Shown here in pieces: positions 12,970 through 58,560 of a stretch of 64,000 bases of DNA. Source of the stretch: a virus; the IMG/VR virus record IMGVR_UViG_3300042516_004698, positions 1-64,000 of that record. One strand, 5' to 3'. The notes beneath the pieces are model-generated. The model searched no databases and had not been told where the DNA came from. It saw nothing but the letters and a program-made list of their open reading frames with translations. How positions within the stretch are numbered: the stretch's first letter is position 1; the number at the start of each line of letters is the position of its first letter. Made by a program: the position numbers and the translations under genes.

Positions 12970-13896
12970 ATGCCTACACAGTCAGAAATCCAACTGCTCA
13001 ACGAAACACTGTTTGAGCAGCTCGACACTCCCGGCATGCAGAAGCAGGCCATCGACGCGGTTAACGACTTCACGCGCACCAAGATGCGTGAAGACGGGTT
13101 CTACCGGCGGATTATGCCGCCGCTGACAATCACCAACGACGAGCTCGACCGTCAGGTTGACACTGACAAGCCCGTCAAGATTGTCGATAAGGAACCCGAT
13201 TCCCCGGCTGCCGTGTCGATCCCGTTTGCCACGCTGCCCGTTAACTTTTACATCCGTGGCCCGCGTTACCGCGTCATGTTTGACCGGATCGTGTCGCCCC
13301 GCGCTGTGAAGGACGTCGACGAACTGCGCACCTACGTCATGGACATCCGGCAGGTTCTGTCGGACAACATGATCAAGGACATGCTCGCCGAAGAAGACGG
13401 AAAGTTCATGGCCGCGATCAACGCTGTGCTCCCGACTGCGGGCGCCCCGGCTGTTGGCTCGGGCGAAGTTCAATACGAGGAGATCTACGGTGGTATCACC
13501 CGCGAAACGCTGGTTGACGCCCTCAAGATCATGCCGCGTACGGCTTCGCACTTCGAGGTTGAGACTTGCCTCGTGAATAACCTCACGATCAAGGAGCTCC
13601 TCAAGTTCGGTCGCGACGAAATGGGTGGTGACTTCTCGCAAGACATCATCAAGAACGGCTGGGCGGAAACCAACTTCCTGAATTGCCGCTGGATCGTGAC
13701 GATCAAGACGGGCCTTGTCCCCACGGACAGCCTGTTCATGTTCGCCTCGCCCAAGTTCATCGGCAAGAACTACGAGCTCGAGCCCACCACGATGTACATC
13801 CGTCGTGAAGCTTACATGCTCGAGTATTTTGCCTATGAGACGACAGGCGGCTCGTTCGGCCATACGAACGGTCTGGCCCGCGTCGATTTCAAGTGA
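12970..13896 (+). CDS. Putative major capsid protein
   Basis: The 308-aa product has the length and segment order of an HK97-fold capsid protein. An N-terminal helical arm is followed by an extended E-loop-like beta region (residues about 60-105, PVNFYIRGPRYRVMFDRIVSP). A long spine-helix candidate (DELRTYVMDIRQVLSDNMIKDMLAEEDGKF) follows, and later A-domain-like strands with a final beta region. It follows protease, scaffold and decoration candidates, has the strongest type of SD in the window, and shows clean high-expression codon usage. A long reading frame on the opposite strand is a composition artefact. No sequence database search was possible, so the fold assignment is by pattern and context. 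Confidence 0.75.
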   Translation: MPTQSEIQLLNETLFEQLDTPGMQKQAIDAVNDFTRTKMREDGFYRRIMPPLTITNDELDRQVDTDKPVKIVDKEPDSPAAVSIPFATLPVNFYIRGPRYRVMFDRIVSPRAVKDVDELRTYVMDIRQVLSDNMIKDMLAEEDGKFMAAINAVLPTAGAPAVGSGEVQYEEIYGGITRETLVDALKIMPRTASHFEVETCLVNNLTIKELLKFGRDEMGGDFSQDIIKNGWAETNFLNCRWIVTIKTGLVPTDSLFMFASPKFIGKNYELEPTTMYIRREAYMLEYFAYETTGGSFGHTNGLARVDFK

Positions 13897-30830: not shown

Positions 30831-31822
30831 TGATAAACCACGCACGCACATTACTACTAAACGTCGACTCGCGCACATACATGCCCGATGTGCTCGGGGA
30901 AGAGTACATACCGGCCTATCAGGCGGCTGCGCTGCCAACGTATCTAACCACTGCGCGCAAACTGCTGCTTGGATCTGCGCCTGACCGCGTGTTCCTAAAC
31001 TTTCGTACGCAAGAGCTGTTGAGCTTTATTCATCGCACAGAGCTAGCCGAATTTGTGTACGCGCTTGATCCACGTGTGACGTATTGGCCAAAACCGCAGT
31101 CTGAATTTTTTCGCGCGAAGACGACAATCACAACGCTAAAGACAGTTGGAACAGACGAGTCGCGGCTGTACATAAACGGCGTGCTCAAACCAGACAACAG
31201 CAAAGGGCGCGCGTTTAAAGAATACACCGTAAAACTCATCAATAATACGACAGCGTCCGCAACTGTCGAAATAGTTAGCGATAACGGCGCCGCTGTTGAT
31301 ACGCAAATAATAGAGTGGCTAGCTACGACTCCGGATACCGCCGGCGCCGACGTAACGTTTACGGGTATGTCTAATCAAATTGCGTTACCTAATACTGAGC
31401 TTACGCTGCAGCTGGTGGCCGGGAATCTCAACTTGAACATATTGGCGTTTGAAGATTTTGTAAACACAGTTGCAGAGACCGGGCTTGTATTCAGCAACAT
31501 AGCTTTAGAAAAAGGTGTAGACCCAATGGCGCTACGCGCCGCCCCGCCCGTGTTAAAAGTAGTTGAAGATCGTGTCGTGCTGGCTGAGTGGCTGCTGCAA
31601 CTTTACGCAAAACCTGACAGCGCGATATCTGCTTGCCTGCCTCGTCTAGACTTTCTAGGCGAGCCGTTTTATCTTGAGCTATTCGGCGTGGGTAATACAG
31701 TTGAGCCGTACGCTACGTTTAAAAATATTTGGTTCAACCACCCAAGCGCCGCGTATCGCCTTGCGGTGTTTACGTTAGCCGTAATCTACCGTACAAACGA
31801 GCTGAGGTTACAAAATGGCTAA
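30830..31822 (+). CDS. Baseplate protein of unknown specific role
   Basis: The 330-aa product starts MINHARTLLLNV and is mixed alpha/beta with a beta-sandwich-like middle (EYTVKLINNTTASATVEIVSDNG). The last 100 residues are helical (VVLAEWLLQLYAKPDSA). It overlaps the hub gene by 8 nt, so it is translationally coupled to it. Position within the baseplate operon suggests a wedge or hub-peripheral protein; no family is recognised. Confidence 0.5.
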   Translation: MINHARTLLLNVDSRTYMPDVLGEEYIPAYQAAALPTYLTTARKLLLGSAPDRVFLNFRTQELLSFIHRTELAEFVYALDPRVTYWPKPQSEFFRAKTTITTLKTVGTDESRLYINGVLKPDNSKGRAFKEYTVKLINNTTASATVEIVSDNGAAVDTQIIEWLATTPDTAGADVTFTGMSNQIALPNTELTLQLVAGNLNLNILAFEDFVNTVAETGLVFSNIALEKGVDPMALRAAPPVLKVVEDRVVLAEWLLQLYAKPDSAISACLPRLDFLGEPFYLELFGVGNTVEPYATFKNIWFNHPSAAYRLAVFTLAVIYRTNELRLQNG

Positions 31823-33545
31823 AGAACCGTACGTATCAGCAAAATTCAAAGTCTGGGCGATATTTACAACCGACTCCGGCGAGATTGTGTTTAACGACGT
31901 TGTAGCCGTTTCGGCTTCTTTTGCCTTAAACACAATCCCTACGGCGTCGCTTGTGGTCGCGGTTGGAACGAATGCTATTACAAACGAGCCGGCCACTATT
32001 CACGCAGCGCAATCACGCATTAAACCGCGCGACAAGGTTATTGTTAAGTTGCAGGTTACGCACGGCGCTGGGGACAACACAAAATTTCCAAACGGCACGT
32101 ACACAATATTTGACGGATTTTTTGTCGGTATCGGCTACCAACGATCACACAATCAAGCCAATTTTGTGCTGAACCTAACGCACTGGCTCGATGATTTGAA
32201 TAATTCGTCAGCCGTTAACGGTAACTGGTTTCCGAGCGTTCCGTTTGATTACGCGCAATCGGCTGTGTACGACAAAATCGCTAGCGCAGACGCATACGCC
32301 CCGAACCCGACAGTTGCAGCAGATTTTGCAACGCCGGAGTTTGTGCAAGAAGATTTGTGGGAGAGCGTGATAAAAAAACTGTTCGTCCGTCTTGCTGGTA
32401 TGTCTGGCGGGTTGGTCGCAGAATCGAACCGCAATGCTGTTACAAATTCTGCCGCATTAGCCGCGCTTGACCGCATGCCCGGTGACGGTATCGCGTACTA
32501 CAAAAAACTGGGGTTTAAAATAAAAGCGATCGGCGGAGAAAATCTAGCTGATTCTTTCGGCAAATATTTTACCAAAACCATCGGGACGTCGTTTGCGCAA
32601 AATACATTTTGGGCAAAACTAGTGGCTGAGTACTCCTCACAGTTCTTTTTCTCTGTTTCGCCAGCCGTTAGTTGGGCGATGCCTATTCCGTTCTGCGCCG
32701 GTTTACGCTGGGCCGCCGGCGGGAAAGAAATTAAATCAGATGAATACAATTACGCCAACTTTAACGCAAACACGCCACAGCTGATACGCTCGGTAGAGAT
32801 CGCGTATGCTGCCACGGAAATGAACGGCTTGCCGATGCCCCCACCTAACGATGACGACGTCGATCCGCCGCGTTCTTTTTTCTACCCGTGCGGTATATAC
32901 CCGCCAGCTACAGCCGATGCGCGAGGCAGAAAACAACCGGACAGGGGGCTGCGTCTATTTAAAATGCCGCCAAACTGGGCGGAGAATATCGACGGCAGCT
33001 CATTAGTGGCGCTGTCGGGGACGACTGACGCCGCCGCTACAACGGACTCCGGCGGTGATGACGCGGGTAAAAGCCGCCCAGCTGGCGTAAAGAGCGCGTC
33101 GGCCGCAGCAGACGCGACCTTGCCGTCTGTGCATCTATTCGCGCAACACTGGTATGTAACGGAGGTGTTGCAGCAGAGGTACGGTGAGTTGTCAGGAGCG
33201 CTGCGGTTTGACATCGCGCCCGGCAGCATCGTTAAAATTAGAACCCCTGCCCGCGATACAGCGCTAAACAACCCAACCGCTGATCCGGATGAAGAGCATG
33301 TTGTGGCGTCAGTTATATCAGTGTCATACGTTATTAACGCAGAACGGGCTACCGCCGGTACATCGTTTGCAATAGCGCACACTAAAATAAAGAGCGAGTT
33401 GCAGCCAGACTCTATTTATGCCGTAGACACGCCGCCGTTGTATAAAGAAGCGTGGCACGGCGGCCCGCTTGCAGTCATGGACACGGCGCCCGCAGGTGTC
33501 GGTGACACTAATGTAAGCATTCCAGACAGCACAACGATAGTCTGA
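31815..33545 (+). CDS. Baseplate hub protein (gp27/gpD-like)
   Basis: In this 576-aa product, residues about 5-115 have the beta-barrel pattern of the hub domain shared by T4 gp27, gpD and VgrG. It comprises SFALNTIPTASLVVAVG, PRDKVIVKLQV, then TYTIFDGFFVGIGYQ and NFVLNLTHWLDDL. A second barrel is likely around residues 240-330, and the C-terminal part (HLFAQHWYVTEVLQQRYGELSGALRFDIAPGS) resembles the second hub barrel. Residues 385-430 are a low-complexity linker. It precedes wedge genes, as expected. Confidence 0.65.
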   Translation: MAKEPYVSAKFKVWAIFTTDSGEIVFNDVVAVSASFALNTIPTASLVVAVGTNAITNEPATIHAAQSRIKPRDKVIVKLQVTHGAGDNTKFPNGTYTIFDGFFVGIGYQRSHNQANFVLNLTHWLDDLNNSSAVNGNWFPSVPFDYAQSAVYDKIASADAYAPNPTVAADFATPEFVQEDLWESVIKKLFVRLAGMSGGLVAESNRNAVTNSAALAALDRMPGDGIAYYKKLGFKIKAIGGENLADSFGKYFTKTIGTSFAQNTFWAKLVAEYSSQFFFSVSPAVSWAMPIPFCAGLRWAAGGKEIKSDEYNYANFNANTPQLIRSVEIAYAATEMNGLPMPPPNDDDVDPPRSFFYPCGIYPPATADARGRKQPDRGLRLFKMPPNWAENIDGSSLVALSGTTDAAATTDSGGDDAGKSRPAGVKSASAAADATLPSVHLFAQHWYVTEVLQQRYGELSGALRFDIAPGSIVKIRTPARDTALNNPTADPDEEHVVASVISVSYVINAERATAGTSFAIAHTKIKSELQPDSIYAVDTPPLYKEAWHGGPLAVMDTAPAGVGDTNVSIPDSTTIV

Positions 33546-35354: not shown

Positions 35355-37034
35355 ATGAGCCTACAGATAACGAGTTTTACCGAGTTAGATAACACGCGTG
35401 TGCAGGAATTATTAACGCTGTTTTCTACATGGATGAAAGAGCGGCACCCAGAGGTAGAGCTGTCACGCGGCGTATTTCACGACCTTGTGCTGTACTTTAA
35501 CAGCGTGCTGAACGCGGCTGTACAAGAGAACATAAGCCGCGTTATGCAAAGCAACAGCTTATTGGCTATCACGCAGAACCCGAGCCTGTCTGATAGCACG
35601 CTTGTCGACAAGGTTTTGTCTAATTTCAACCTGACCCGTGAAACAGGCACAAGCGCCACCGGCGAGGTAGTCGTTATTGTTAATCAAGCTGTCCCCACGC
35701 AGATTAGCCTAAACACAAAACTTGTTGCAAACGGTGTTACCTTTTATCCGGCGCGCACGTTCGTCGGCATTCCTCCCGGGCAAGACGCCACGGCAACAAA
35801 CGCCCGCGCGATGGTTGCCGGCGGCAACGGCACTTACGCGTTTAAGATAACCGTTTTCGCAGATAGTGCTGGAACAGCCGGCAATATTCCGCGCGGTACA
35901 AAGCTCATTCCTGACGTCGTACCGAGCAACGTAGCCGACACATACGCTGCTGCTGACTTCACTAAGGGCGTAGATCCGCCGACAAACGCGGAATATATCA
36001 CAAAACTACCTGACGGACTTTCAGCTAAAACAATTGGCGGCAAAAAGGCGTTCACAGCCCTTATCCGCGCCCAGCCAGATTTCCAAAACATTCGCCATTT
36101 GTCTGTCGTCGGTTTTGGCGACGCGGAACAGATGCGAGACCAGCACGGTTTATTCCCGGTCTCTGGCGGCGGGCGAGTGGATATCTACACGCAGACGCAC
36201 GAAATAGCGCAGCACACCGATAACTTTTTAACCGCTACGTATATTGGCCCTGCCGCTCCCGGCGATCAAACAGCCGGAACAGTCTGGCAAATCGCTATAG
36301 ACCGCGATCAGGCGCCGGGTTTTTACGCTATCACACGTATTGCCAAAATTAATGATACGCAAAACTCGGGTTATGCGATCAGAACAGCTGTACCCGGTTA
36401 TAGGCTAGCTGCAGCTACGGGCGCAGCGGTCAGCGACTATCTTCCAGACATCCAAACGCTGGAGGAAAGCGCGTTTACCCGGTACAAAACACTGACTGTA
36501 CAGTTTGTTGACGTAGACACCATGCCGGGCAGTCTTGTGCCGCGGCAAAGCACTGTTGACTACAGCGTCACAACAGTTGGCATGCCGTTGATTGGGCAGC
36601 TACAGGATTTTCTTGCCAGCAAAGACATCCGATGCCGCACAGCTGACGTGCTCGTAAAGGCAGCTATCCCGTGCTTTACTAGTATTGCGTTCAAAATCAG
36701 GCGGGCAGCTAACGAAGTAAACCCCGATTTTGCGGCTATCAAAGAAGCCATTGTGACAGCTATTTCCAAGATAGGCTTTGCTGGGCAGTTGTCTGCTTCT
36801 GTAATTAGCAGTGTCGCGCATCAGTTTCTGACGGGTACGCAGTCTGTCGGCAGTATAGACATGTTCGGGAAAATTCTGCGGCCGGATGGGCAAGTTGTGT
36901 ACATTCGCGATGGCGCGCGCATTGTTGTGCCTGACGATCCGACGCACATGGTCAGCGCGAAGACAGTTGTATTTCTGACCTCCGTAGACGACATCGAAAT
37001 TGCGCCCGAAATCATATCGAGTTACGGCGACTGA
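35355..37034 (+). CDS. Baseplate wedge protein (gpJ/gp6-like)
   Basis: The 559-aa product shows the family pattern. An N-terminal helical region is followed by the beta domain (TGEVVVIVNQAVPTQISLNTKLVANGVTFYPA) characteristic of Baseplate_J proteins. A variable middle comes next, and a C-terminal alpha/beta region (DVLVKAAIPCFTSIAFKIRRA...AIKEAIVTAISKIGFAGQLSASVISSVAHQFL) equivalent to the wedge dimerisation domain. It follows the gp25-like gene by 4 nt, the conserved order of contractile injection systems. Confidence 0.85.
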   Translation: MSLQITSFTELDNTRVQELLTLFSTWMKERHPEVELSRGVFHDLVLYFNSVLNAAVQENISRVMQSNSLLAITQNPSLSDSTLVDKVLSNFNLTRETGTSATGEVVVIVNQAVPTQISLNTKLVANGVTFYPARTFVGIPPGQDATATNARAMVAGGNGTYAFKITVFADSAGTAGNIPRGTKLIPDVVPSNVADTYAAADFTKGVDPPTNAEYITKLPDGLSAKTIGGKKAFTALIRAQPDFQNIRHLSVVGFGDAEQMRDQHGLFPVSGGGRVDIYTQTHEIAQHTDNFLTATYIGPAAPGDQTAGTVWQIAIDRDQAPGFYAITRIAKINDTQNSGYAIRTAVPGYRLAAATGAAVSDYLPDIQTLEESAFTRYKTLTVQFVDVDTMPGSLVPRQSTVDYSVTTVGMPLIGQLQDFLASKDIRCRTADVLVKAAIPCFTSIAFKIRRAANEVNPDFAAIKEAIVTAISKIGFAGQLSASVISSVAHQFLTGTQSVGSIDMFGKILRPDGQVVYIRDGARIVVPDDPTHMVSAKTVVFLTSVDDIEIAPEIISSYGD

Positions 37035-43684: not shown

Positions 43685-46600
43685 ATGCCTGTACGTAATC
43701 AAAATTGGTACGATCTGCAAGCTGGTAGGCGCTACCCGCTTGACGATCTCAGCACCGGTTTAGACGATGCTGGCGCATTTATTGACGACAGCATCCTAGT
43801 CGATTGCCACATACGCTTTCCAAATAATCTCGGCGCGGTGGCTTTTGTGCAGGCCATCACGGTATCCAATACGCTTGTTACCGTGCTTATTGGTACGGCT
43901 GACGCAGCGCACACGCAGAGCAGCATACGCACAATAGCGGCCGTAAATATTGCGAAGCCGGCGCAGCTGAATAAAAACTACCCGATAACCGCGCTTATTC
44001 CGGGCGTCGCCGGTTGGGTAGTTTTCGGCGCAGGCATTAAAAATGATTTCATAGCGCGATACGCGACGCCTGCTCAATCACTTATATTGCCGCGATGCGC
44101 CCGGCCTTACCGCCCGTTACCCATTCCGACAATCGGCAAAGTTAACTTAGCTACAGCACTCAGCGGCATTGTGGATCTGGACGTTGTAGCGCCAATTGTG
44201 GCCGAGCGAAAAACAATAACGATCGCTGGTAAAGTTGTTGCCGCTATTGAGTTTCGATTAGACGGCAATTTAACGAACGTAGAGTACAATCCGTACGAAT
44301 ACTTTTTGGGTGAGTGCGGACAGCGGCCAGAGAGCGGCACGTGCCCGAAGCAACCCATCGAAACAATCAACGGCGTAACACCCGATTGCGATGGCAACAT
44401 CACAATTATCGGCGACGGTATAAGTGTTTACCCGTTCGTCCCCGGCGGCGGAATAGGGATCGACATACCGCTCGGGCTGGCCGATATCTGCGATAAAAAA
44501 AGATACGAGCCGCCGCGGCAAGGTTCTGATGTGTGTATAAGCTCGTCAAGCAGCCTCGGCAGCAATCCGCCTGTCATCGGGTCATCTTCGTCGAGCGCTG
44601 GTATTGTTGTCCCGCCGTCGTCCAGCTCTAGCTCCTCTACAGCTTCAGCGGCGAGTCAGTCGCTCGGCAGTTTACCGTTTTGCCAGCCATTTACAGGAAA
44701 TATGGCTGAGTTGCTGGCTACAGTATCCGGGCGGTTCACAGCCAGAACGCAACAATCCCCGGAAAAATGTACTGGGCTCAGCTCCGCGTCAATAGCCGGG
44801 CAAGTAGCGCAAATGCGCATGACGCCAGCCGAACTACCTCGCGAGCAATTCGCAGCGGGCGTTAATTCCGCAAATTTCAATAATTGCGCTATTTGGGACG
44901 GTCTGATTGGTAATCTTACTACTGTTGGAAGTAATGGCGGACCCAGCGCATACGGAACTTTTGATCAAACGGGAAACCTACGTCAGTGGTACGACTTCGC
45001 GGGTAATCTCTCGATTCGCGGAATTAAAGGCGGCACGTGGTCTAACAACGATGCGTTCTTCTTGACATCCGCCCCGAGCAGCTTCAGCGAACCGGGAGCT
45101 GCGGACGCATCCATCGGTTTTCGTGTCGCAAGTTCTTTTTCTACGCCTAACCCTTTAAATTTTTCTAACTTCGTGTCTGTTGGCGACATTAATAACACCG
45201 CTGATACTGGTGGCGCAGTAGGCCTCGGTAGTGTAGATTACGCTTACGCTATAGGAAAATATAACGTTACCAATAGTGAATATGTAGAATTTTTAAATGC
45301 TGTCGCCGCAACTGACACGTACGCGCTTTACAATGTTAGTATGGCAGCCGCTCGTGGCGGTATCACTAGGTCGGGCGTTAGTGGCGGGTTTTTCTACACC
45401 GTAAAAACTAATTACGGCAACAAGCCGGTCAACTGGGTGAGTTGGTATGACTGCGCACGGTATTGTAATTGGCTGCACAATGGAAAACCCACTGGACTGC
45501 AAAACAACAGCACGACCGAGGACGGCGCTTATACTTTAAATGGCGTAACTACTGGAAACGCTGTCGTCAAGAACGCCGGAGCAAAATACCACGTCCCAAC
45601 AGAAAATGAATGGTACAAGGCAGCCTATTACAAAGGCGGCGGAACCAATGCTGGTTATTGGCAATATGCAACACAAAGCAACATTGCTCCAACCTGCGTT
45701 AGCGCAAATAGCGTAGGCGATGGGCTTGCCGTACCTAGCTCCAGCTCTAGTAGCTCCAGCTCCAGCAGTCGGTCAAGCTCCAGCTCCAGAAGCTCTAGTA
45801 GCTCTAGCTCCAGTAGCTCGTCGCCGCGGCCTAATGCGGTGTCAAATATTACAGCTACTACAACAAGCGCGACAACAGTATTGCTGACGTGGTTTTCAAA
45901 TAACCCTGACTGGCAATATTTTTCTGTGTCTTTTTCACAGGTAGCGCCAGCAGGCGGTGGCGGTATATATTATCTAGGTCCGCCTAATTTTCCCGGATCA
46001 AGCAATATAAGATCGTGGACGCTGCCGGGTGTTGTAAGCAGTTATCGCTATCAAGTTACAATTACACCGCGGGCAAACGCCACCACTAGCGCCGCGGCCG
46101 TGGGGCCATCTGATTCGATTACGTTCACAGCGGCGTACAATTCCAGCTCGAGTAGTAGCTCTAGTTCGCTGTCTAGCTCAAGCTCTAGCAGCAGCTCAAA
46201 TTCAGTTAGCTCGTCAAGTTCCAGCTCTAGCAGCAGCTCAAATTCAGTTAGCTCGTCAAGTTCCAGCTCTAGCAGCAGCTCAAATTCAGTTAGCTCGTCA
46301 AGTTCCAGCTCTAGTAGCTTGTCTAGTTCAAGTTCTGTGTCTAGCTCAAGCTCCAGCTCCCGCTCCAGTTCAAGCTCTAACTCCAGCTCGAGCTCCCGCT
46401 CTAGTTCAAGCTCCAGCTCAAGATCAAGCTCTAGCTCAAGATCAAGCTCCAGCTCCCGCTCCAGCTCAAGCTCCAGTTCAAGCTCCAGCTCCCGCTCCAG
46501 CTCAAGCTCAAGCTCCAGTTCAAGCTCAAGCTCCCGCTCCAGTTCAAGCTCAAGCTCCAGTTCAAGCTCAAGCTCCAGCTCTAATTCAAGCTCTAGCTCA

Positions 46601-47371
46601 AGTTCAAGCTCAAGCTCTAATTCAAGCTCTAGCTCAAGTTCAAGCTCAAGTTCCAGCTCCAACAGTTTGTCTAGTTCCAGCTCAGAAATCCCATCTAGCG
46701 CGATCAGCCAATCGAGCTCCGACAGCTTGTCTAGCTCAAGCTCTAGTTCCAGCTCTAATTCACGCTCTAGCTCAAGCTCCAGCTCTAATTCACGCTCTAG
46801 CTCAAGCTCCAGCAGCCGATCAAGCTCCAGCTCAAGCAGTCGGCGCGCTATTACACAATTAAATCAGGTTATATACGCATCAGACGACGTATTTGCGACA
46901 AATATCGCCGTTCTGAAAAATTACCCGACAGATTGGGCCGCAAATAAACGCATATCGACCGAGTTTAAAATTGCGCCGGGCATCACAAATAATGCCGGCC
47001 TCGTATTCAATTATTTACCGCCAACAACGCTTACTGGCGCGCCCACCTATCTTGTCGCCGCTGTCGATGCTGATCGCGGCACGTTTATGTTGCTGCGCTA
47101 TAACGGCTCCACTTTCGTTGCGGAGTACACATTAGCGTTGTCCGCAGCGAATTTTGTGTTCGACGCTACGCAATGGCATAAAATAACAGTTACGCCTGTT
47201 ATTGCCGACGGCGTATCCGGCGTAACTGTGCACTGTACGCTTGCTGATAGCGCCGGCAATCAGCAAGTTGCGTTCAGTGTATCAGTGGCTAATTACGGCG
47301 CACCGATTGGCACCAGCGGAATATTTGCTGATCGGGCGTACACTTATTTCAATAATTTAACGGTTGAGTGA
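43685..47371 (+). CDS. Multidomain adhesin: FGE-like, FnIII, poly-Ser, LamG-like
   Basis: In this 1228-aa product, residues 1-230 carry the RRYPL N-module and an INGVTPDCDGNITI module. Residues about 382-484 look like the C-terminal half of an FGE-sulfatase/C-type-lectin-like domain (VGSNGGPSAYGTFDQTGNLRQW ends the first core, and IGFRVAS closes it). Residues about 495-683 look like the N-terminal half of the same domain type (KYNVTNSEYVEFLNAVAATD, KPVNWVSWYDCARYCNWLHNG, PTENEWYKAAYYKGGG). The halves are therefore in reversed order. Residues 716-817 are FnIII-like, 818-1053 are mostly serine, and 1054-1228 are a concanavalin/LamG-like beta sandwich. It is a probable receptor-binding protein. 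Confidence 0.65.
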   Translation: MPVRNQNWYDLQAGRRYPLDDLSTGLDDAGAFIDDSILVDCHIRFPNNLGAVAFVQAITVSNTLVTVLIGTADAAHTQSSIRTIAAVNIAKPAQLNKNYPITALIPGVAGWVVFGAGIKNDFIARYATPAQSLILPRCARPYRPLPIPTIGKVNLATALSGIVDLDVVAPIVAERKTITIAGKVVAAIEFRLDGNLTNVEYNPYEYFLGECGQRPESGTCPKQPIETINGVTPDCDGNITIIGDGISVYPFVPGGGIGIDIPLGLADICDKKRYEPPRQGSDVCISSSSSLGSNPPVIGSSSSSAGIVVPPSSSSSSSTASAASQSLGSLPFCQPFTGNMAELLATVSGRFTARTQQSPEKCTGLSSASIAGQVAQMRMTPAELPREQFAAGVNSANFNNCAIWDGLIGNLTTVGSNGGPSAYGTFDQTGNLRQWYDFAGNLSIRGIKGGTWSNNDAFFLTSAPSSFSEPGAADASIGFRVASSFSTPNPLNFSNFVSVGDINNTADTGGAVGLGSVDYAYAIGKYNVTNSEYVEFLNAVAATDTYALYNVSMAAARGGITRSGVSGGFFYTVKTNYGNKPVNWVSWYDCARYCNWLHNGKPTGLQNNSTTEDGAYTLNGVTTGNAVVKNAGAKYHVPTENEWYKAAYYKGGGTNAGYWQYATQSNIAPTCVSANSVGDGLAVPSSSSSSSSSSSRSSSSSRSSSSSSSSSSSPRPNAVSNITATTTSATTVLLTWFSNNPDWQYFSVSFSQVAPAGGGGIYYLGPPNFPGSSNIRSWTLPGVVSSYRYQVTITPRANATTSAAAVGPSDSITFTAAYNSSSSSSSSSLSSSSSSSSSNSVSSSSSSSSSSSNSVSSSSSSSSSSSNSVSSSSSSSSSLSSSSSVSSSSSSSRSSSSSNSSSSSRSSSSSSSRSSSSSRSSSSSRSSSSSSSSSSSRSSSSSSSSSSSSSRSSSSSSSSSSSSSSSNSSSSSSSSSSSNSSSSSSSSSSSSSNSLSSSSSEIPSSAISQSSSDSLSSSSSSSSSNSRSSSSSSSNSRSSSSSSSRSSSSSSSRRAITQLNQVIYASDDVFATNIAVLKNYPTDWAANKRISTEFKIAPGITNNAGLVFNYLPPTTLTGAPTYLVAAVDADRGTFMLLRYNGSTFVAEYTLALSAANFVFDATQWHKITVTPVIADGVSGVTVHCTLADSAGNQQVAFSVSVANYGAPIGTSGIFADRAYTYFNNLTVE
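46138..46845 (+). repeat. Poly-serine-coding hexanucleotide and 42-bp repeats
   Basis: About 236 residues, mostly Ser, are encoded by alternating AGY and TCN codons, giving an AGCTCN-like 6-nt periodicity. Three identical 42-bp copies (14 codons, containing N-S-V) lie in tandem at 46187-46228, 46229-46270 and 46271-46312, indicating recent slippage or unequal recombination. Occasional Arg, Asn, Leu and Val codons break the runs. Confidence 0.9.
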
Positions 47372-49141: not shown

Positions 49142-52100
49142 ATGTCTGAACCACTCTTCACAAATGAATGCATACCGAATCCGCCGCCGAAGGTAGATTT
49201 CAGGTTTATCGACGTATGCGATATTCCGCCTCCACCGCCGCCTATCTACGACTGCCCGGCGCCGACTTGTCCGCCGTACGATAAACCACCGCCATGCCCC
49301 GAGATAACTCCGGGCAAAACGACTATAACGGTCACGCCAGCACGCGCTGGTTGCCCGCCGCCAACAACACCAACAGGCGGCAAACTTACCGTAACAAAAA
49401 GCGAAGACTGCGCGTTTGAAATAGGCCTAGATCTCACGCTCGTCGTGCCGGAACCGCCGTGTCCGAATATACGGGGCGGTAGCGTTAATGTGACGTCTGG
49501 ATACGCCGGTTGCGTGCCGGGCGAAGGCGGAAAAGTCACAGTTACGCCGCGCCCACCGCCCTGCCCCGATTCAGGCGCAGCGTGTGAGTTCGACATTGAT
49601 GTCGACATCGTAGTGCCGGTACCAATCCCGCCGTGCCCAACAATTAGCGGTAAGCGCGTTACCGTAACTACTGGCTATGGTGACTGCGGCCAAGGCTCCG
49701 GTGGAAAAGTCACAGTGACGCCGCGGCAGAGCACGAACTGCGAAGGCGGTAACTGCGAATTTGATATTGATGTCGATATCGAAGTGCCGTTACCTACGCC
49801 ACCGTGTCCGAATATTACCGGCGGCCGTGTTAATGTAAAGTCTAGCTATGCCGGCTGCCTAACCGACGGCAGCAAAATGTCGGTTCGGCAACCAGTTAGA
49901 CAAGAATGTGATGGCACAGGCTGCGATTTTGAAATCGATCTCGATATCGAAGTGCCGATCCCAACGCCGCCGTGTCCAAACGTTATTTCGTCATACAGAA
50001 CGGTCAGAACCGGCGAAGGCCCGAGTTTAACTACGCGTGTCGAGTCGCGTCCTGATTGCGAAGACGGCAATAATTGCGATATCTACATGGATATCGTGTT
50101 TCCAGAACCGCCGAAACAACCATGCGTTCCGGTTTTTGCGCCCGGAAGCATCACCGTCAGAGAAGCAGATAACCCATCATCAAATAACCAGTTTTTAATT
50201 GAACGCGTACAAAATCCAAACAAACCAGAAGAGTGCACGTATCGTCCGTTTGGCTACATTCAAATACCAAAAATACCGAATATACCGGAGTGGGTAAAAA
50301 ATACGCCCAAAGCGCCGTGTATCCCGACAATCACAGGCGGCGAAATAACCGGAAATAAGGTTAAGGGCAAAATAACGGTGGCTGCACCCACGCCGCCAGA
50401 AGAGCCAGAAGAGCCAAGCAACAATTGCGTCGGCAGCTGTTGGATATTAAATCAAGAGCCGTTTAACATAAATACAGCAGACCCGTTTGGGCCAGTAAAT
50501 ACTGATGTCTGGGGTACTTGCTACCCAATGGGCGCATTTGCGGCAGTTACTGACGAACGATCATGCAAACAATTTGGCGGTACGTACTTTTCAGGTAATG
50601 ATTGCAAGGCTTGTCCGCCGCCACCACCGCAGCCGACGACGCCAACAGTACCTAAACCGTGCAGCGAACTGCAAATCAGCGCGGAGCTTGAGTTAGAAAT
50701 ACCAGAGCCGTGCGTACCTAGATTTACCAAAGGTAAAGTTAACGTATCTTATCAAAAACAAGGCGGCGGTGAGATTACAGTTAATGACTCAACCAGCTGC
50801 AATAGTTGTTACTACCCAGAAAACTCTACTGGAGCAATTCTGGCCGCGGCTGGGCAGGTTGGTGTAAGCGTAGCGCCAGCGGTGTGCGTTGTAGCCGACG
50901 ATAACTTCAGCGCTGACAACTCCACAATGTGCGAGCAGCGTGGCGGCACATGTTTCCCGGGTCCAGACTGCTCGAATAGCTGCAAAGATCTTGAAATATC
51001 TGCCTACGTATACGTGCCGCCTAATTGTCCGGAATTTGAAGACGGCACGATCACAAAAAAAAGCAGCGGCGGCGAAACGTCAACATCTGGCGACAGCGCG
51101 TCAGAAATAGGAACAATAAAAATAACGCCGGCCGGTATCTCGACCCGTACAAATGAAAGCGGCGATGAAGAAACACGCTGTAGATTCGCTATCGCTGCCG
51201 AACTTGATCTTGATGCGATCGGCGCTGGCGGCGGCGGAAAAGATTGCGTTCCCGAAGGCGGCGACATTTCTGTTACTGAAGCCAAAAAAGGCGAAAAGTC
51301 TGGCGGCAAGATTCGCATCGAGACAGAAGCAGACGACAAAGAAGGCTGGTGCAAACAGGCAGGTGATTGCTCACCCGGTTACACGAAAAGCATGTGCCGT
51401 GACGCCGGCGGAGAGTGGTTTCCGACTGAGGGGTGTAGCAAACCGTCGTGCGGTTACACAATCGCAGCCGATATCACTTTACCTACATTAGAAATTGAAT
51501 TTGAGCCGGCTGCGAATGTCGAGCTCGAGCCGATCGAGTGCGATCAGCCAGCCACCATTTCCGCAAATGTTGTTAAAGGGGAAGACGGTAAATACAAAAT
51601 TGAACTTAGCGGTTCGTACCCTGATTGCAGCGCATGCTGTCCGGTTGAAACAGAAGCCGGGATCGGGCCACGGCGGGCAGGGATGCGCCGACTCGGTCTG
51701 ATGACTGCGCCCGCAGATTTGCCACGGCTCTCCGTTTCGTCTAACGGCTACTACACAGGCGATGTACTTGTTATTAATTTAACGTTTACAGACTTTGTGC
51801 AGGTTGTTGATTCGTCTGTAAAATTGGTTATAGATTTAAACTCGCCGGTGGTGGGAAGTAGTACATCAAGCGGGACAAGTTCTTCCGCGACTTCCGGCGA
51901 ATTACCAAATTTGCGCTACGCCGACCTAGAAACAACTAGTGGCGGTAGAACCAGAAAACTTACGTTTACGTACACAATTCAAACAGACGATTTTAGCACC
52001 GGAATTAGAGTGCTACGGCTCACCGACGAATCAACGCCATATTACGCGGCACTTGCGAATAAAGCCGGCAAAAAGCTCGTCAGGCCGTTTACACCGATTA

Positions 52101-55100
52101 GCGCTGACATTTGCATCAATGCCGGTTGCGGATCGTCTAGCTCTAGTTCGAGCTCTAGCTCTAATTCAAGCTCAAGCTCTAGTTCAAGCGCGCGGTCTAG
52201 TTCAAGTAGTTCGAGCAGCCAATCGAGCTCAAGCAGTCGGTCAAGCTCGAGTAGCGTGTCTAGTTCTAGCAGTCGGTCAAGCTCAAGTAGCTTGTCTAGC
52301 TCAAGTAGCCGGTCAAGCTCAAGTAGCTTGTCTAGCTCAAGTAGCCGGTCAAGCTCTAGCAGCTTGTCTAGTTCGAGCAGCTTGTCTAGTTCTAGCAGCC
52401 GGTCAAGCTCAAGTAGCTTGTCTAGTTCTAGCAGTCGGTCAAGCTCAAGTAGCGTGTCTAGTTCTAGCAGCCGGTCAAGCTCAAGTAGCCGGTCAAGCTC
52501 TAGCAGCCGGTCAAGCTCTAGCAGTTCTTCCAGCTCAAGCAGTCAATCAAGCTCAAGCAGTCAATCAAGCTCAAGTAGCCGGTCAAGCTCAAGTAGCCGG
52601 TCAAGCTCTAGCAGCCGGTCAAGCTCTAGCAGTTCTTCTAGCTCAAGTAGTCAATCAAGCTCAAGTAGCTTGTCTAGTTCTAGCAGTCAATCAAGCTCAA
52701 GTAGCTTGTCTAGTTCTAGCAGCTTGTCTAGCTCTAGTAGCCGGTCAAGCTCGAGTAGCGTGTCTAGTTCGAGTAGCTTAAGCAGTTCTTCCAGCTCAAG
52801 CAGTTCAGACAGTTCGAGTAGTTCGCGCAGCTCCTCCAGCTCAAGCAGTCAATCAAGCTCAAGTAGCTTGTCTAGCTCTAGTAGCCGGTCAAGCTCGAGT
52901 AGTTCTTCCAGCTCAAGCAGCTCAAGTAGTTCAAGTAGTTCGTCTAGCTCGCGTAGTTCAAGTAGTTCGCGCAGCTCTTCCAGCTCAAGTAGTTCGAGTA
53001 GTTCGAGTAGTTCGAGTAGTTCAAGTAGTTCAAGTAGTTCCAGCTCGCGCTCGAGTAGTTCCAGTTCTTTTGCGCCAAGCGATATACAACTTTCTAACAA
53101 CAATGTTTTAGAGAACCGACCAGTTGGAACAGTTGTCGGTACAATTTTTTCTGTTTATGCCGGTACTCGCGGTTCGGCCAACTTTACGCTAGTCACGGGA
53201 ACCGGCAGTACAAACAATGCATCGTTTAAAATAGTAAATAATGAACTGCAAACAAATGCAGTGTTTGACTACGAAACAAAAAATAGCTACTCAGTCCGTA
53301 TACGCGCGACAGAGCCGAACAATGCCGCGCTGTACGCTGAAAAAGCGTTCAATATTGCCGTGCTCAACGCCGTCGAGGTGCCCGGCCCTCCGCAGGGTCT
53401 CGTTGCCGATCAACATGCTCGATGCGTTGATTTGAAATGGTCTATATCGCTAGATACTGGCGGCGGTACGATTACAGAATACATTATTGAGCGGTCAGAA
53501 AACGGCAGCACGTGGACCGAAGTTACCAGAGTTTCCGCTTCAACGCCGCTCGGCGGGCCGCGATACGACTTCGCCGAAAGTCTAACGCTAGATATCCGTA
53601 AACCGTACACTTTTCGCGTTGCTGCCGTAAACGAAGCGGGACGCGGGGCCAACAGTAATATTGCTGGACCTGTTACGCTTTGCCCGTGCGACGCCGATGT
53701 TGACGGCGGTGCAGGCGGCGCGGCGCCGCAACCGAACGATACATGCGGCTCGTGCGCAACAGACGGCGGTACGGCGAACGCTGGTTTTACCGGCGCCGCC
53801 GGCGAGTGCCAAGAACAGCGCAAATCGTCGAGCTCTAGCTCGCTTATCGCGACAGCGTTTAAAGTCTGCACCGACCTCGGCGACTGCTTGGCGTTTGTGG
53901 GTATCGGGACGCCTATTCCAGACTGCACAACTTGCCCAACGCCCTGCGCGGCTACAGTGTTGGCAAGCGGTAATTGCGAATATGATGTTCCGCGCTTGAA
54001 CGTTAGAAACGGTCTTGGCGGGCGTGTCTCCACGTACACCGGCCCCACTAAGACCGCAGGCTATAGCGGCAGCATTACGGTCAGCTGCAATAACGGAGCG
54101 CTTACAACCACAAACGTTACGTGCGTAGAAAACAACTGCACAGCGCAACGCTATGCGCCAATAAATCAAGCGTGCGCGTACGACATTCCGGCTATGACTG
54201 CTGGGCAGACGCTGACAATAAATACAAACACAGCCGGTTACAGCGGTCAAATAACAGCCGTATGCAGCGCTGGTAAGCTTACGTTTACGCAAACGACTAC
54301 CTGCACAGAATTACCGTGCGCCTACACAACTTTCACAAGCCCAGCCGGTTGCGTATTTGCTAACCCGCAAGGAGCCGGTGTTCAAGTGCAGAGTCCGTGG
54401 ACGGGCGCGGCGGTTCTCATTCAAAATACGCGCGTCGGCTACACAGGCCAGCCGTACTCAGGCTCCGCAACCGCGACGTGCTTGCGTGGCGTAATGAGTT
54501 TTACAGATGTCGTATGCAACTCAAACTGCTTAGGCGCAAATACAACACACGGCACGTGCACATTTACAACTGGCGACGCTACTACATACGTATTGAACCA
54601 TAATGCAGTGCGTGATTACGTTTCAACAAATCCCCCCAGCGTTGTAAGCGGCACAGCCACCGCTATTTGCAATAACGGAACAACGCAATGGCAAGCGCAG
54701 TCATGCACTGGCGCACCTGCAGCGCCTGTACTCTCAGCTACCGGGGGCGATACCTTGGTGAACGCTACTTGGACGCAAGGCGGAGACGGCGGCGCGCCGT
54801 TAAATCGTTTTGAATTACGCTATGCGACGTTGCCTACCTTCGTGGGCGGCGGCACGCTGGTTCGCGCCCCCGGCGACAGAGCCGCCGCGTTAAACAATTT
54901 AACTAACTACGCAACTTATTACCTGTCGATTCGCGCGGTCAATAACGCTGGTTTTACGAGTCCGTGGAGCAACACGGTAGCCGTTACGCCGTGTGGCGAA
55001 CCGCAGCCTGCAGCGCTAATCAGCGCGGCAATGCTCAACACCGGTGTAACCATAAGGTACACATGCCCGCCAGCGCTGCCAGCCGGTATTCCAGTACCGA

Positions 55101-57205
55101 CGCTTACAGCAGAACGCAGCACCGATAATGGCGCAACTTGGACAACGTATGCGGCACTACCTTACGCTGCTGGTGCCACATTAGATCAGACCACAACCAC
55201 AGGATTTAATGGTAGTGTGCGTAACGCAATACGTATACGCACGACTATTGCGGGTTGCGGCACGTCTGTTAGCGCTGATGTAAAAATTGCAGTAAATATT
55301 CCGTGCACGCCGGGCGCTGCCACGGCGACCCTCGCGGCCTCGTGCTCTGGCGCGCTTAACGTCAGCTGGACAGCGCCGGCCGTTGGCGCTACGTGCGGGC
55401 CTGTGACAGGTTATCGGGTGCAGTGCTCTGGCGATAGCGGCGTAAATTGGGCAACAGATCCTGCGACATACACAGGCACGACAGGGCGTTTTTCTCCTGT
55501 ATATAACAGCTTGGCGTACCGTTGCCGCGCAATAGCGTTTAACGAAGCCGGTAACGGCCCCGCGGGCACGCATAGAAACTCCGTAGGCGTTGGCGTATCG
55601 ACCCCGCCCGGTTACGCGCCAGTTACGATTGGCGCAGCAACGAGCTCGACAATTTCGATTACGTGGCTAGCTGCCTTTGTCGGCACTGGAGTATACGCCA
55701 GACCCGTAACTAGCTACACAATTTACAGAAGAGCCGTCAGCAATAGAGCGCTAGAAACAACTGTAGCGACTGTCGGCAGTACCGTGCGGGCGTACACGTT
55801 TACAGGCCTTAGCCCAAATACGGCGTATGAGTTTAAAGTTGTAGCAACTAATCTGTGCGGCAACGGGCCGACCGACGGCTGGTCTGCCCCGGGCACTACA
55901 ACCAATCTGGTACCCAACGCGCCAGCCGGATTAACTGCAACACCAAGCGCGGCATGCGACGGGGCCGGCGCGGGTGGCGGAGTTATTTCACTGTCGTGGA
56001 CTGCTGCAACCTCTGGCGGCGGTCCGGCGGTTACAGGCTATACGCTTCAGCGCTCGTTAAATAACACGACTTGGACAACAATAACAACAACAGACCAAAA
56101 TACTACAGCGTATGTAGACTCGTCTGGGGTGCCCGGCACAACCTACTATTATCGCGTACTCGCCAACAGTACGAACGGCGCAAGTCCGGCAAGTAGTCCC
56201 GTCACAGCTGTAGCGCCCGCGACGACGCCAAGCGAACCGCAAAATTTTACAGCCACGCCTAGTAGCGGCAAAGCAACGCTAAGCTGGAGCGCACCGGCTG
56301 TGCGCGGAACGCCAACTGGTAGTTTACTGTATATCGTGTGGTACAAATTAACAACAAGTACAACGTGGATTAGTGGCGGCTCAGGTTTAACAGCGACGTC
56401 GTTAGAGCTCACTTTACAAAATAGCCAGAAATATGACGTCGCCGTGGCGGCAAAGAATGCAACGTGCGCAGACTACGGCGACTATGCCTATAATGAAGTC
56501 ACGCCGTTTAATCCAAATTGCACATGCGCCCCGCAGTCTTACAGCGTAAATGGTTGCCTGTTCGCCTTTCCGTCACAGGCGCGCAACACCCAGACCAGCG
56601 CGTTAAATAGCGCAAATAACTACTCCGGCGAAGCATACCGAACATGCGACGCGGTTTGCAATATGACAACAGCGCAAACATCTGTCACAGATAGCGCAAC
56701 ATGTGTCTTTAACGGCGTCACAACTACATACAACTGCGTAAACGGCTCGTGTAACGCAGTGTCCGGTTCTGGCGGTACGTACACAACGCTATCCGCATGC
56801 CAAAGCGCTTGCAGCGGCGGTGGCGGGACTAGCCCTTGTGCGCTTAGTCCAGTAACAAATATTAACGGGTGTACGTATCCGTTCGGCGGCACGTTATCCG
56901 CTAATACTTATTCCGGGTACGTCGCTACGACTACGTTCGGCAAAACAGGCTCCGCGCGCATGTACTGCAACGGAACGACAGGTGTCGCGACCTTTGACGC
57001 GGGCACTGCGACGTGCAACACCGATTCCGGCGAAGTGCGGAACGCGTGTACGTACATGTGGAGCAGTATCCCCGGCGGTGGCGGCCGGTACGAGTTGTTC
57101 AGCTCAGATTGCAGCAGCGGCTCGTGCCCGAGCACGATCAACACCACGGTGACCCCCGGGCAGCCATTTGGCACATTAGTAGGCCCGTTTCCGCGCTGCC
57201 AATAA
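49142..57205 (+). CDS. Giant Cys-rich, poly-Ser, FnIII-repeat adhesin
   Basis: The 2687-aa product has five parts. Residues 1-330 hold about four Pro/Cys modules of 65 aa (PPCPNI-x-GG-x-V-x-V ... C-x-F-D-I-D-V-D-I). Residues 330-860 hold further Cys-rich beta modules, with a thrice-repeated C-x(2-4)-GG-x-[FYW]-F-x-G-x-DC-like motif. Residues 855-997 are a beta sandwich. Residues 998-1310 are a serine spacer with period six. The rest is a cadherin-like domain (1312-1415), about seven FnIII-like domains interrupted by four Cys-rich repeats (about 1600-1855), and a Cys-rich end with a Kunitz-like-spaced CVNGSC ... CQSAC stretch. It is a probable long tail-tip fibre binding the host surface. No catalytic motif is seen. 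Confidence 0.65.
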   Translation: MSEPLFTNECIPNPPPKVDFRFIDVCDIPPPPPPIYDCPAPTCPPYDKPPPCPEITPGKTTITVTPARAGCPPPTTPTGGKLTVTKSEDCAFEIGLDLTLVVPEPPCPNIRGGSVNVTSGYAGCVPGEGGKVTVTPRPPPCPDSGAACEFDIDVDIVVPVPIPPCPTISGKRVTVTTGYGDCGQGSGGKVTVTPRQSTNCEGGNCEFDIDVDIEVPLPTPPCPNITGGRVNVKSSYAGCLTDGSKMSVRQPVRQECDGTGCDFEIDLDIEVPIPTPPCPNVISSYRTVRTGEGPSLTTRVESRPDCEDGNNCDIYMDIVFPEPPKQPCVPVFAPGSITVREADNPSSNNQFLIERVQNPNKPEECTYRPFGYIQIPKIPNIPEWVKNTPKAPCIPTITGGEITGNKVKGKITVAAPTPPEEPEEPSNNCVGSCWILNQEPFNINTADPFGPVNTDVWGTCYPMGAFAAVTDERSCKQFGGTYFSGNDCKACPPPPPQPTTPTVPKPCSELQISAELELEIPEPCVPRFTKGKVNVSYQKQGGGEITVNDSTSCNSCYYPENSTGAILAAAGQVGVSVAPAVCVVADDNFSADNSTMCEQRGGTCFPGPDCSNSCKDLEISAYVYVPPNCPEFEDGTITKKSSGGETSTSGDSASEIGTIKITPAGISTRTNESGDEETRCRFAIAAELDLDAIGAGGGGKDCVPEGGDISVTEAKKGEKSGGKIRIETEADDKEGWCKQAGDCSPGYTKSMCRDAGGEWFPTEGCSKPSCGYTIAADITLPTLEIEFEPAANVELEPIECDQPATISANVVKGEDGKYKIELSGSYPDCSACCPVETEAGIGPRRAGMRRLGLMTAPADLPRLSVSSNGYYTGDVLVINLTFTDFVQVVDSSVKLVIDLNSPVVGSSTSSGTSSSATSGELPNLRYADLETTSGGRTRKLTFTYTIQTDDFSTGIRVLRLTDESTPYYAALANKAGKKLVRPFTPISADICINAGCGSSSSSSSSSSNSSSSSSSSARSSSSSSSSQSSSSSRSSSSSVSSSSSRSSSSSLSSSSSRSSSSSLSSSSSRSSSSSLSSSSSLSSSSSRSSSSSLSSSSSRSSSSSVSSSSSRSSSSSRSSSSSRSSSSSSSSSSSQSSSSSQSSSSSRSSSSSRSSSSSRSSSSSSSSSSSQSSSSSLSSSSSQSSSSSLSSSSSLSSSSSRSSSSSVSSSSSLSSSSSSSSSDSSSSSRSSSSSSSQSSSSSLSSSSSRSSSSSSSSSSSSSSSSSSSSSRSSSSSRSSSSSSSSSSSSSSSSSSSSSSSSSRSSSSSSFAPSDIQLSNNNVLENRPVGTVVGTIFSVYAGTRGSANFTLVTGTGSTNNASFKIVNNELQTNAVFDYETKNSYSVRIRATEPNNAALYAEKAFNIAVLNAVEVPGPPQGLVADQHARCVDLKWSISLDTGGGTITEYIIERSENGSTWTEVTRVSASTPLGGPRYDFAESLTLDIRKPYTFRVAAVNEAGRGANSNIAGPVTLCPCDADVDGGAGGAAPQPNDTCGSCATDGGTANAGFTGAAGECQEQRKSSSSSSLIATAFKVCTDLGDCLAFVGIGTPIPDCTTCPTPCAATVLASGNCEYDVPRLNVRNGLGGRVSTYTGPTKTAGYSGSITVSCNNGALTTTNVTCVENNCTAQRYAPINQACAYDIPAMTAGQTLTINTNTAGYSGQITAVCSAGKLTFTQTTTCTELPCAYTTFTSPAGCVFANPQGAGVQVQSPWTGAAVLIQNTRVGYTGQPYSGSATATCLRGVMSFTDVVCNSNCLGANTTHGTCTFTTGDATTYVLNHNAVRDYVSTNPPSVVSGTATAICNNGTTQWQAQSCTGAPAAPVLSATGGDTLVNATWTQGGDGGAPLNRFELRYATLPTFVGGGTLVRAPGDRAAALNNLTNYATYYLSIRAVNNAGFTSPWSNTVAVTPCGEPQPAALISAAMLNTGVTIRYTCPPALPAGIPVPTLTAERSTDNGATWTTYAALPYAAGATLDQTTTTGFNGSVRNAIRIRTTIAGCGTSVSADVKIAVNIPCTPGAATATLAASCSGALNVSWTAPAVGATCGPVTGYRVQCSGDSGVNWATDPATYTGTTGRFSPVYNSLAYRCRAIAFNEAGNGPAGTHRNSVGVGVSTPPGYAPVTIGAATSSTISITWLAAFVGTGVYARPVTSYTIYRRAVSNRALETTVATVGSTVRAYTFTGLSPNTAYEFKVVATNLCGNGPTDGWSAPGTTTNLVPNAPAGLTATPSAACDGAGAGGGVISLSWTAATSGGGPAVTGYTLQRSLNNTTWTTITTTDQNTTAYVDSSGVPGTTYYYRVLANSTNGASPASSPVTAVAPATTPSEPQNFTATPSSGKATLSWSAPAVRGTPTGSLLYIVWYKLTTSTTWISGGSGLTATSLELTLQNSQKYDVAVAAKNATCADYGDYAYNEVTPFNPNCTCAPQSYSVNGCLFAFPSQARNTQTSALNSANNYSGEAYRTCDAVCNMTTAQTSVTDSATCVFNGVTTTYNCVNGSCNAVSGSGGTYTTLSACQSACSGGGGTSPCALSPVTNINGCTYPFGGTLSANTYSGYVATTTFGKTGSARMYCNGTTGVATFDAGTATCNTDSGEVRNACTYMWSSIPGGGGRYELFSSDCSSGSCPSTINTTVTPGQPFGTLVGPFPRCQ
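52135..53070 (+). repeat. S5X minisatellite coding a 312-residue serine spacer
   Basis: An 18-bp unit encodes five serines plus one X residue. X alternates among Arg (CGG), Leu (TTG), Val (GTG) and Gln (CAA), and turns to pure serine towards the 3' end. Higher-order blocks recur, for example R-V-R-L-R-L and R-R-R-S-Q-Q. Serine codons mix AGC, AGT, TCA and TCT. Confidence 0.9.
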
Positions 57206-57281: not shown

Positions 57282-57950
57282 ATGAGTTGCGATTTTGAAA
57301 CCACTCCCTGCGCAATGCCCGGAAACTTTACGTGCAAAAAGTGCAAACTATGCGGTCACATGGTTGGGATGGCGGCCGCGGTAGCCGAGGCACAGTGGCC
57401 GCAAGTGCTAGCAAACATTAAAGCCGGCTGCGCGCACAACAAGACGCCGCAAGCGAGCCACACCGCAGAAGAACAGGCGCTAATAGATAGCGTACCGCAG
57501 CCCTCGCCGCCTATTACCGGAAAAACCTTCGGCGCCGTAGCCGCAAATGTGGGCGCCAATTTAGCCGGTATTCCGCCGGCGCCGGGGTATACGACCGCAC
57601 CGGCATATGTTGATCCTACGCTGGCGAACGTGCAAAATCCGTTTGAGATACCGCAGGACAATACGGGTCCGGGGTCGCAGCTAAAGAAGTTTTTAAGTAG
57701 AATTGGTATTACAGCTACGCCTACGTGTTCTTGTAACGCAAAGGCGCGTCATATGGATGCGATGGGCGTAGACTGGTGCGAGCAAAATGTTGATTTAATC
57801 GTAAGCTGGCTAAAGGAAGAAGCGCAAAAACGCGGTCTCCCGTTTATTGATTTAGCCGGGCGCGTGCTCGTAAATCGCGCAATAGCGGCCTCGCGAAAGG
57901 CGCACTCACACAAACTCAAGAAATTGAACATACCAAATGGACTGCAATAA
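57282..57950 (+). CDS. Zinc-ribbon protein with Cys-His helical C-domain
   Basis: In this 222-aa product, residues 9-24 contain C-x(6)-C-x-x-C-x-x-C (FTCKKCKLCGH), a probable zinc ribbon. Residues 60-135 are a Pro/Ala linker. Residues about 140-215 contain CSCNAKARHMDAMGVDWC followed by a helix (EQNVDLIVSWLKEEAQKRGLPFIDLAGRVLVNRAI), a compact Cys-containing helical domain I believe recurs in phage tail-region proteins. It overlaps the next gene by 14 nt. The function is unknown. Confidence 0.6.
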   Translation: MSCDFETTPCAMPGNFTCKKCKLCGHMVGMAAAVAEAQWPQVLANIKAGCAHNKTPQASHTAEEQALIDSVPQPSPPITGKTFGAVAANVGANLAGIPPAPGYTTAPAYVDPTLANVQNPFEIPQDNTGPGSQLKKFLSRIGITATPTCSCNAKARHMDAMGVDWCEQNVDLIVSWLKEEAQKRGLPFIDLAGRVLVNRAIAASRKAHSHKLKKLNIPNGLQ

Positions 57951-58560
57951 ATTACCGGCAGATAACGATATCGCCGCGTTAGATGACGCGCTCGGTGATA
58001 ATTTTGCCAACCAGCCTATGCCTATCATGGTGGGCGAGCTGTCGGCCTCGCGGCGTATTAAACTGACGTGGTCCGTTAGCCGTTATTACTACAACGGCAC
58101 CGACGGGCTTCGCGTGCGTATTGAGACGTCAGACGCGGTAGATATGCCCAACAAGATATTTGCGTACTTGCTGATGCCGCTGCAGCCGGGCGCCACAGAA
58201 CGCACAGGTGAGTTTAACCATGTATGCTCACCAAGCGATCTGGAAGAGTTCCCAGAAGACGAGCCGTTACCAGCTAAAAGGCCGGAGTGGTTTCGGCTGG
58301 CTTACGTAGACGTCGTACTGCGCTCACGCACAGAGGTGTACGCGTTTATTCGCGACACGGCGTCGGACGTCCACCAGCTCAAGCAATCACTCGACATAAC
58401 CGACCGTGTTTACCCAGCTGGCGAGCTTTGGATCGGGCCAAGACCGGCAGAAAGCAGCTCGTCTAGCTCGAGCAGCTCCAGCTCTTCGGGGCCTAGCAGT
58501 TCAAGCAGCTCAAGCTCTTCACGGTCTAGCAGTTCAAGCAGCTCTAGCGCACAGGTGTAA
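57937..58560 (+). CDS. Beta-rich protein with C-terminal serine-rich tail
   Basis: In this 207-aa product, residues 1-170 are a beta-rich domain (RRIKLTWSVSRYYYNGTDGLRVRIET). Residues 172-205 are almost only serine with single Gly-Pro and Arg breaks, ending AQV. The tail has no domain after it, unlike the linker-type serine runs, so it may itself be a functional or modified surface. It is probably a small virion protein. It overlaps the previous gene. Confidence 0.6.
   Translation: MDCNKLPADNDIAALDDALGDNFANQPMPIMVGELSASRRIKLTWSVSRYYYNGTDGLRVRIETSDAVDMPNKIFAYLLMPLQPGATERTGEFNHVCSPSDLEEFPEDEPLPAKRPEWFRLAYVDVVLRSRTEVYAFIRDTASDVHQLKQSLDITDRVYPAGELWIGPRPAESSSSSSSSSSSSGPSSSSSSSSSRSSSSSSSSAQV

Follow-up and report, generated by a model that had tools for sequence, protein, structure and literature searches.

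The window, the whole 64,000-nt stretch analysed here (positions 1 to 64,000 of IMG/VR record IMGVR_UViG_3300042516_004698), belongs to a 75,370-bp virus contig (G000) that is itself a genome fragment. It carries an RNA polymerase Rpb1-type domain together with similarities to tail-sheath, baseplate-wedge and sigma-factor proteins, which point to a large myovirus. Named phages are remote: the sheath matches those of Salmonella phage Arash and Vibrio phages D69, D148 and D181 at 26–29%, and the RNA polymerase matches are likewise remote, Rpb1 domain 5 lying in a 620-aa ORF at 995–2857 with 25–28% identity to proteins from large phages of Salmonella and Vibrio. Across 50,697 phage records, no match was found to the N-terminus of the adhesin described below, to the N-terminus of ORF 43685–47371, or to ORFs 35355–37034 and 31815–33545. 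The adhesin ORF, its parts and the serine-rich tracts of other ORFs in the window are as follows:

45737..45823, + strand: 29-residue Ser linker between the FGE-sulfatase-like and FN3-like parts of ORF 43685–47371
46142..46840, + strand: Ser tract of 233 residues preceding the conserved C-terminal domain of ORF 43685–47371
49142..57205, + strand: putative tail adhesin, 2,687-aa ORF, downstream of baseplate/tail genes
49142..50281, + strand: N-terminal Pro/Cys-rich repeat module of the adhesin, residues 1–380, conserved and matched in 43/43 related loci
51449..52129, + strand: all-beta domain(s) directly before the spacer, residues 770–996 (model pLDDT 60, low confidence)
52133..53068, + strand: polyserine spacer of 312 residues, 87% Ser, adhesin residues 998–1309
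52220..52777, + strand: 31 in-register 18-bp units, X-TCN-AGY-TCN-AGY-AGY
52472..52687, + strand: duplicated six-unit (108-bp) block, unit order RRRSQQ / RRRSQL
53069..53386, + strand: cadherin-like domain directly after the spacer, residues 1310–1415 (tblastn similarity)
55622..55873, + strand: top match among the four fibronectin type III stretches of the C-terminal half (PF00041, E 1.1e-39)
58453..58548, + strand: C-terminal Ser tail of 32 residues in ORF 57937–58560

The spacer consists of serine in 271 of its 312 residues, the others being 19 Arg, 10 Leu, 6 Gln and 3 Val, with Asn, Ala and Asp once each; elsewhere in the ORF, serine accounts for 188 of 2,375 residues. Successive non-serine residues are exactly six apart in 31 of 40 gaps, which bears out the first-pass annotation in its description of an S5X serine tract of 312 aa in a giant ORF, placed there two bases off (52135–53070 for 52133–53068). 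The period that it called strict holds within 52220–52777, where the X codons of the 31 core units are CGG (13), TTG (8), CAA (5), GTG (3) and TCT (2). Towards the two ends (∼87 bp at the start and ∼290 bp at the close) the register is looser, with serine runs of up to 25 residues, other spacings and eight non-serine residues outside the S5X register, so that strictness applies to about 60% of the tract. As this is a tandem repeat in a metagenomic contig, the exact number of copies may be a product of assembly. With 19 Arg against one acidic residue the chain is positive; in loci L449 and L020 the Ser tracts contain acidic residues or Gln instead, so the sign of the charge is not conserved among them. 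The +1 frame is also open over most of the tract (51939–52781; 1 stop in 312 codons), a mechanical consequence of the TCN–AGY alternation.

The tract lies between an all-beta model and a cadherin-like similarity. For the domain before it, Foldseek found nothing similar in PDB or BFVD at E 0.001. The part after it resembles a ‘cadherin domain containing protein’ of Rhizobium phage AF3 (tblastn, 36.9%, E 9e-6), has further relatives on viral contigs and received no Pfam call at E 0.001; the Pfam domains of the ORF are of FN3 type only. A single-sequence model of the tract region was uninformative (pLDDT 33).

A profile of the N-terminal module, built from five members, recovered 43 loci on IMG/VR contigs of up to 205 kb, several of them near-copies. 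By fixed window rules, the 43 adhesin ORFs contain a collagen-like Gly-X-Y stretch beyond the N-terminal module in 30 cases (as in G002), a Ser-rich stretch in three (L455, L456 and L457) and neither in ten, four of these ten being cut by a contig end; as ten relatives do without either, the stalk is not essential. The pre-tract domain was matched in 3 of the 43 loci, exactly those with a Ser-rich stretch, so the spacers of the Ser-rich adhesins are position-matched. After a shared ‘...PF(T/A)P...N(A/G)GC’ come the S5X tract in the window, 234 aa of nearly pure serine in G001 and a degenerate Ser/Thr/Gly/Pro sequence in G003/G004. Because the cadherin-like part was matched in none of the 43 loci and the pre-tract domain in only three, being in the same place as the collagen-like stretch is a matter of order only. 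In the adhesin homologue of L486, whose ORF is cut by the locus end, the collagen-like stretch runs to about 1,350 residues.

Polyserine linkers are reportedly treated in Howard et al. (2004). In Saccharophagus, Teredinibacter and Cellvibrio they are described as joining domains (PMC2699552, PMC2386152), and these linkers of Cellvibrionales enzymes are the closest functional likeness of the tract. Both are almost pure serine, the bacterial ones, which lie between folded domains, being given as 80–83% Ser (PMC2699552) and the tract, at 271/312, likewise exceeding ∼80%. Genes for Cellvibrionales-type linkers also share the codon pattern X-TCN-AGY-TCN-AGY-AGY with the tract; among bacteria we found it in 24 stretches, mostly in Cellvibrionales-type genomes, the rest including Clostridia, Sorangium and others. 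The two differ in length (a reported mean of 39–44 residues versus 312) and in the period-six Arg/Leu/Gln/Val punctuation, which is a feature of the tract. The bacterial linkers belong to secreted carbohydrate-active enzymes, whereas the tract sits in a phage protein in which we found FN3-type Pfam domains only and no hydrophobic, signal-like N-terminus.

The collagen-like stalks of phage side-tail proteins are described as semi-flexible connectors between globular domains (PMC3368898). Those of EPclA and EPclB, which according to the same source vary in length by repeat units, resemble the tract as long low-complexity connectors between the globular ends of tail adhesins. Collagen, however, is a trimeric triple helix with Gly in every third place, which polyserine cannot form, and the tract contains no Gly. 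In the literature sampled on phages, tail fibers and jumbo phages, no title describes a polyserine spacer in a phage.

Fap1, GspB and SraP are bacterial serine-rich-repeat (SRR) glycoproteins, and proteins of this kind are built of alternating Ser-X dipeptides of the SASTSA type. The ORF shares with them the form of a large, here putative, adhesin with a very long Ser-rich region, a likeness to which the first-pass annotation had appealed in suggesting a glycosylated spacer and a search for glycosyltransferases. In the features tested the likeness goes no further: its 2,687 aa contain no LPxTG sorting motif (no LP.TG); its first 90 residues, rich in Pro and Cys, contain no hydrophobic signal core (best 15-mer only 0.34, Kyte–Doolittle); the tract, with its period of six, shows no SA/ST alternation (SA once, ST never); and the 75-kb fragment contains no GtfA/GtfB-type genes (0 matches to PF00534 and PF00535). 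We place the tract protein outside the SRR glycoprotein family.

That the serines are nevertheless O-glycosylated or otherwise modified, forming a rigid glycan brush that resists proteases, of the kind seen in bacterial SRR adhesins, appears improbable to us. The 271 serines in one candidate surface protein speak for it, as do GT4-type genes in the phage family, found in 11 of 14 relatives searched and in 2 of 5 other records. However, these 11 relatives have the largest records of the 14 (168–205 kb), ten of them with a collagen-like adhesin, whereas G028–G030 (100–120 kb), which have Ser-rich neighbour ORFs, lack a GT4 gene, and neither PF00534 nor PF00535 was matched in G000, G001 or G002, the first two being fragments. 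GT4 genes in the relatives do not track Ser tracts, and the data hold no link between the two. PF00534 is present in G003 and G005, where the GT4 gene lies near a thymidine kinase gene (G003:103809–106634, G005:107857–110696), accompanied in G003 by cytidine deaminase; this neighbourhood suggests a possible role in nucleotide or DNA modification. A glycosyltransferase adjoining the adhesin was considered for G003 and G005 and set aside, as the contig ends do not overlap and adjacency is unproven. Virion proteins, moreover, fold in the cytosol, outside the accessory-Sec route.

At the DNA level, the tract agrees with itself at an 18-bp shift with an identity of 0.70 (0.42 in shuffles, z 13) and at a 36-bp shift with 0.73 (0.44 in shuffles, z 14.5), as judged against 300 shuffles in which codons were permuted within each amino acid. 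Exact repeats of 62 bp (from 52469, at a 108-bp shift) and 47 bp (at a 36-bp shift) stand out against 60 shuffles in which none of at least 40 bp arose, and the X-residue block RRRSQ is present twice. Units with the same X codon tend to share synonymous codons as well (p 0.0002, 5,000 permutations), third-position differences amounting to 1.64 for same-X unit pairs versus 2.83 for other pairs, so units of one type share descent. Both the unit-wise amplification and the higher-order duplications proposed in the first-pass annotation are upheld by these results.

Across the Ser slots of the 31 units, all ten first and second codon positions are invariant (diversity 0.000) whereas all five third positions vary (0.40–0.62), a split with a site-level chance of 1/3003, the constancy being somewhat favoured because the 31-unit stretch was delimited by the register itself; the X slot, by contrast, is variable throughout its codon (0.57, 0.69 and 0.38 at the three positions). 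Invariant first and second positions beside variable third positions imply old tandem copying followed by selection for serine, and the resulting picture is one of old tandem copying, synonymous decay, selection keeping serine and newer block duplication. A neutral or selfish minisatellite, arising by DNA-level slippage and having no role at the protein level, would share the tandem units and recent block duplications, and G003 and G004, with 100% identity over 21,644 bp and 99.95% over 11,974 bp, do differ by a tandem-unit indel in their Ser-rich spacer. Yet the G003 contig ends inside the spacer, so that this indel may be an assembly collapse, and the codon-position test, with zero non-synonymous and abundant synonymous variation at the Ser slots, already disfavours such an origin, which we regard as highly improbable.

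Adjacent Ser pairs switch between the TCN and AGY classes in 171 of 230 cases (112.7 expected), with no run of three. Because a TCN–AGY exchange needs a non-Ser step, we take this class string to be a relic of the founding unit. Alternation as a general rule of polyserine genes was rejected, as tracts around each seed keep the class of the seed. In 12-codon seed scans (alternating, all-AGY and all-TCN, with at least 120 matches each), the seed fell within a Ser tract at 26 of 80, 21 of 80 and 19 of 78 loci, respectively, among the matches listed, and alternation outside the seed averaged 0.76, 0.01 and 0.05 in the 10, 4 and 4 tracts, among the matches listed, that were long enough to count. 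Translation of UCN codons is reported to slow in serine starvation (PMC3862929), and the class string may alternatively reflect tRNA supply.

On a tree of five flanking genes (43 rows, 34 of them different, comprising the window and 42 loci, L475 having no markers), the window pairs with L457 (SH-aLRT 99), beside L447, L450 and L451 (100). L455 and L456 fall in another part of the tree, which makes two changes necessary for the Ser adhesin. Ser tracts (at least 25 aa and at least 70% Ser, in loci reaching up to 10 kb each side, some cut) occur in L446, L447, L449, L451, L454, L457 and L484, mostly in ORFs other than the adhesin; the large collagen-type clade, 25 rows in all, shows none. The double placement on the tree, along with an N-terminus that is conserved and a C-terminus that changes across the junction, would suit repetitive DNA acting mainly as a recombination joint for swapping adhesin tips between phages, a role we think very unlikely, given that collagen-type relatives vary too and that the longest exact match between Ser tracts of the window is 17 bp (13–17 in synonymous-shuffled controls), so that no shared Ser tract serves as homology. 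Recombination between the tracts of the window was rejected on the same figure.

ORF 43685–47371 has an N-terminus conserved in 42 of the 44 sequences compared (the window plus 43 loci) and a C-terminal domain common to several relatives. Between these conserved ends, the window has an FGE-sulfatase-like domain (E 1.4e-15) and, on our reading of the sequence, an FN3-like part; its Ser linkers, 45, 61 and 264 residues long by a 50% rule, border domains absent from most relatives. The G001 counterpart holds other domains between short Ser linkers, and 37 of the 42 sequences that have the ORF contain no Ser stretch, the other five being the window, L457, L485, L486 and L488. Polyserine in this ORF accompanies domain borders. 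FGE-sulfatase-like folds are often targets of diversity-generating retroelements, a candidate that was rejected here, PF00078 (reverse transcriptase) being matched in 0 of 5 records. A gene like ORF 57937–58560, with a Ser tail of 40 residues, occurs in L007/G001. ORFs of relatives contain Ser stretches of other periods: S7Q in tandem units of period eight in L447, a near relative (downstream ORF starting at 13193), and the period-five SSSS[I/E/D] in L449 and SSSS[R/V] in L446. L020 (IMGVR_UViG_3300033141_003140), which gave no match to the adhesin N-terminus, has a 1,678-aa frame of which 1,179 residues form a Ser/Glu/Gln tract.

The tract is probably a disordered tether, one that lets the C-terminal tip reach out and move freely, and by analogy our best reading is an interdomain tether that would work like the Cellvibrionales polyserine linkers at about seven times their length. 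It would join a virion-proximal N-terminal module to a C-terminal tip of cadherin-like, FN3 and Cys-rich domains, as part of what is presumably a virion adhesin, with a flexible chain doing the job of the collagen-like rod in most related phages. The chain would have grown by tandem copying of the 18-bp unit and of larger blocks, selection holding five of six codons at serine while the sixth residue drifts, and the reach or freedom of the tip would be what is selected. As the matching protein of most relatives has a collagen-like rod, the chain looks like an exchangeable tether more than part of a bacterial-type adhesin coated with sugar. The earlier notion of a spacer agrees with its location between domains, the position-matched Ser stretches of G001 and G003/G004 and the collagen-like stretch in most other relatives; the first-pass annotation is thus confirmed in its observation and partly supported in its interpretation, the spacer half standing and the glycoprotein half not.

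The contour of the tract is ∼112 nm at 0.36 nm per residue, and as a free chain it would measure only ∼10–13 nm from end to end on average by a simple polymer estimate. The collagen stretches of relatives have a median of 352 residues (28 ORFs, leaving out two cut at the 3′ end), or ∼102 nm at the rise of 0.29 nm per residue given for collagen (PMC3368898). Polyserine and collagen would therefore be mechanically unequal, a slack line versus a rod. Serine-rich linkers are thought to be more flexible than proline-rich ones, with length mainly setting conformation (PMC10598543). A point against the tether is the presence of 10 Leu and 3 Val, which make the tract less purely hydrophilic than a plain linker needs. 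More tentatively, the adhesin stalk may have changed material, being a stiff collagen-like rod in most members and punctuated polyserine (S5X or near-pure S) in a few; chain length would then be a quickly evolving, unit-by-unit setting of tip reach and freedom, under measurable selection to stay serine.

The codon-position test shows how, from one sequence alone, a protein repeat under selection can be told apart from a minisatellite that drifts. For this phage family, one homologous adhesin gives a natural series of stalks, namely collagen-like, polyserine, degenerate Ser/Thr/Gly and none, which would let phage biologists test the effects of stiffness and length on adsorption.
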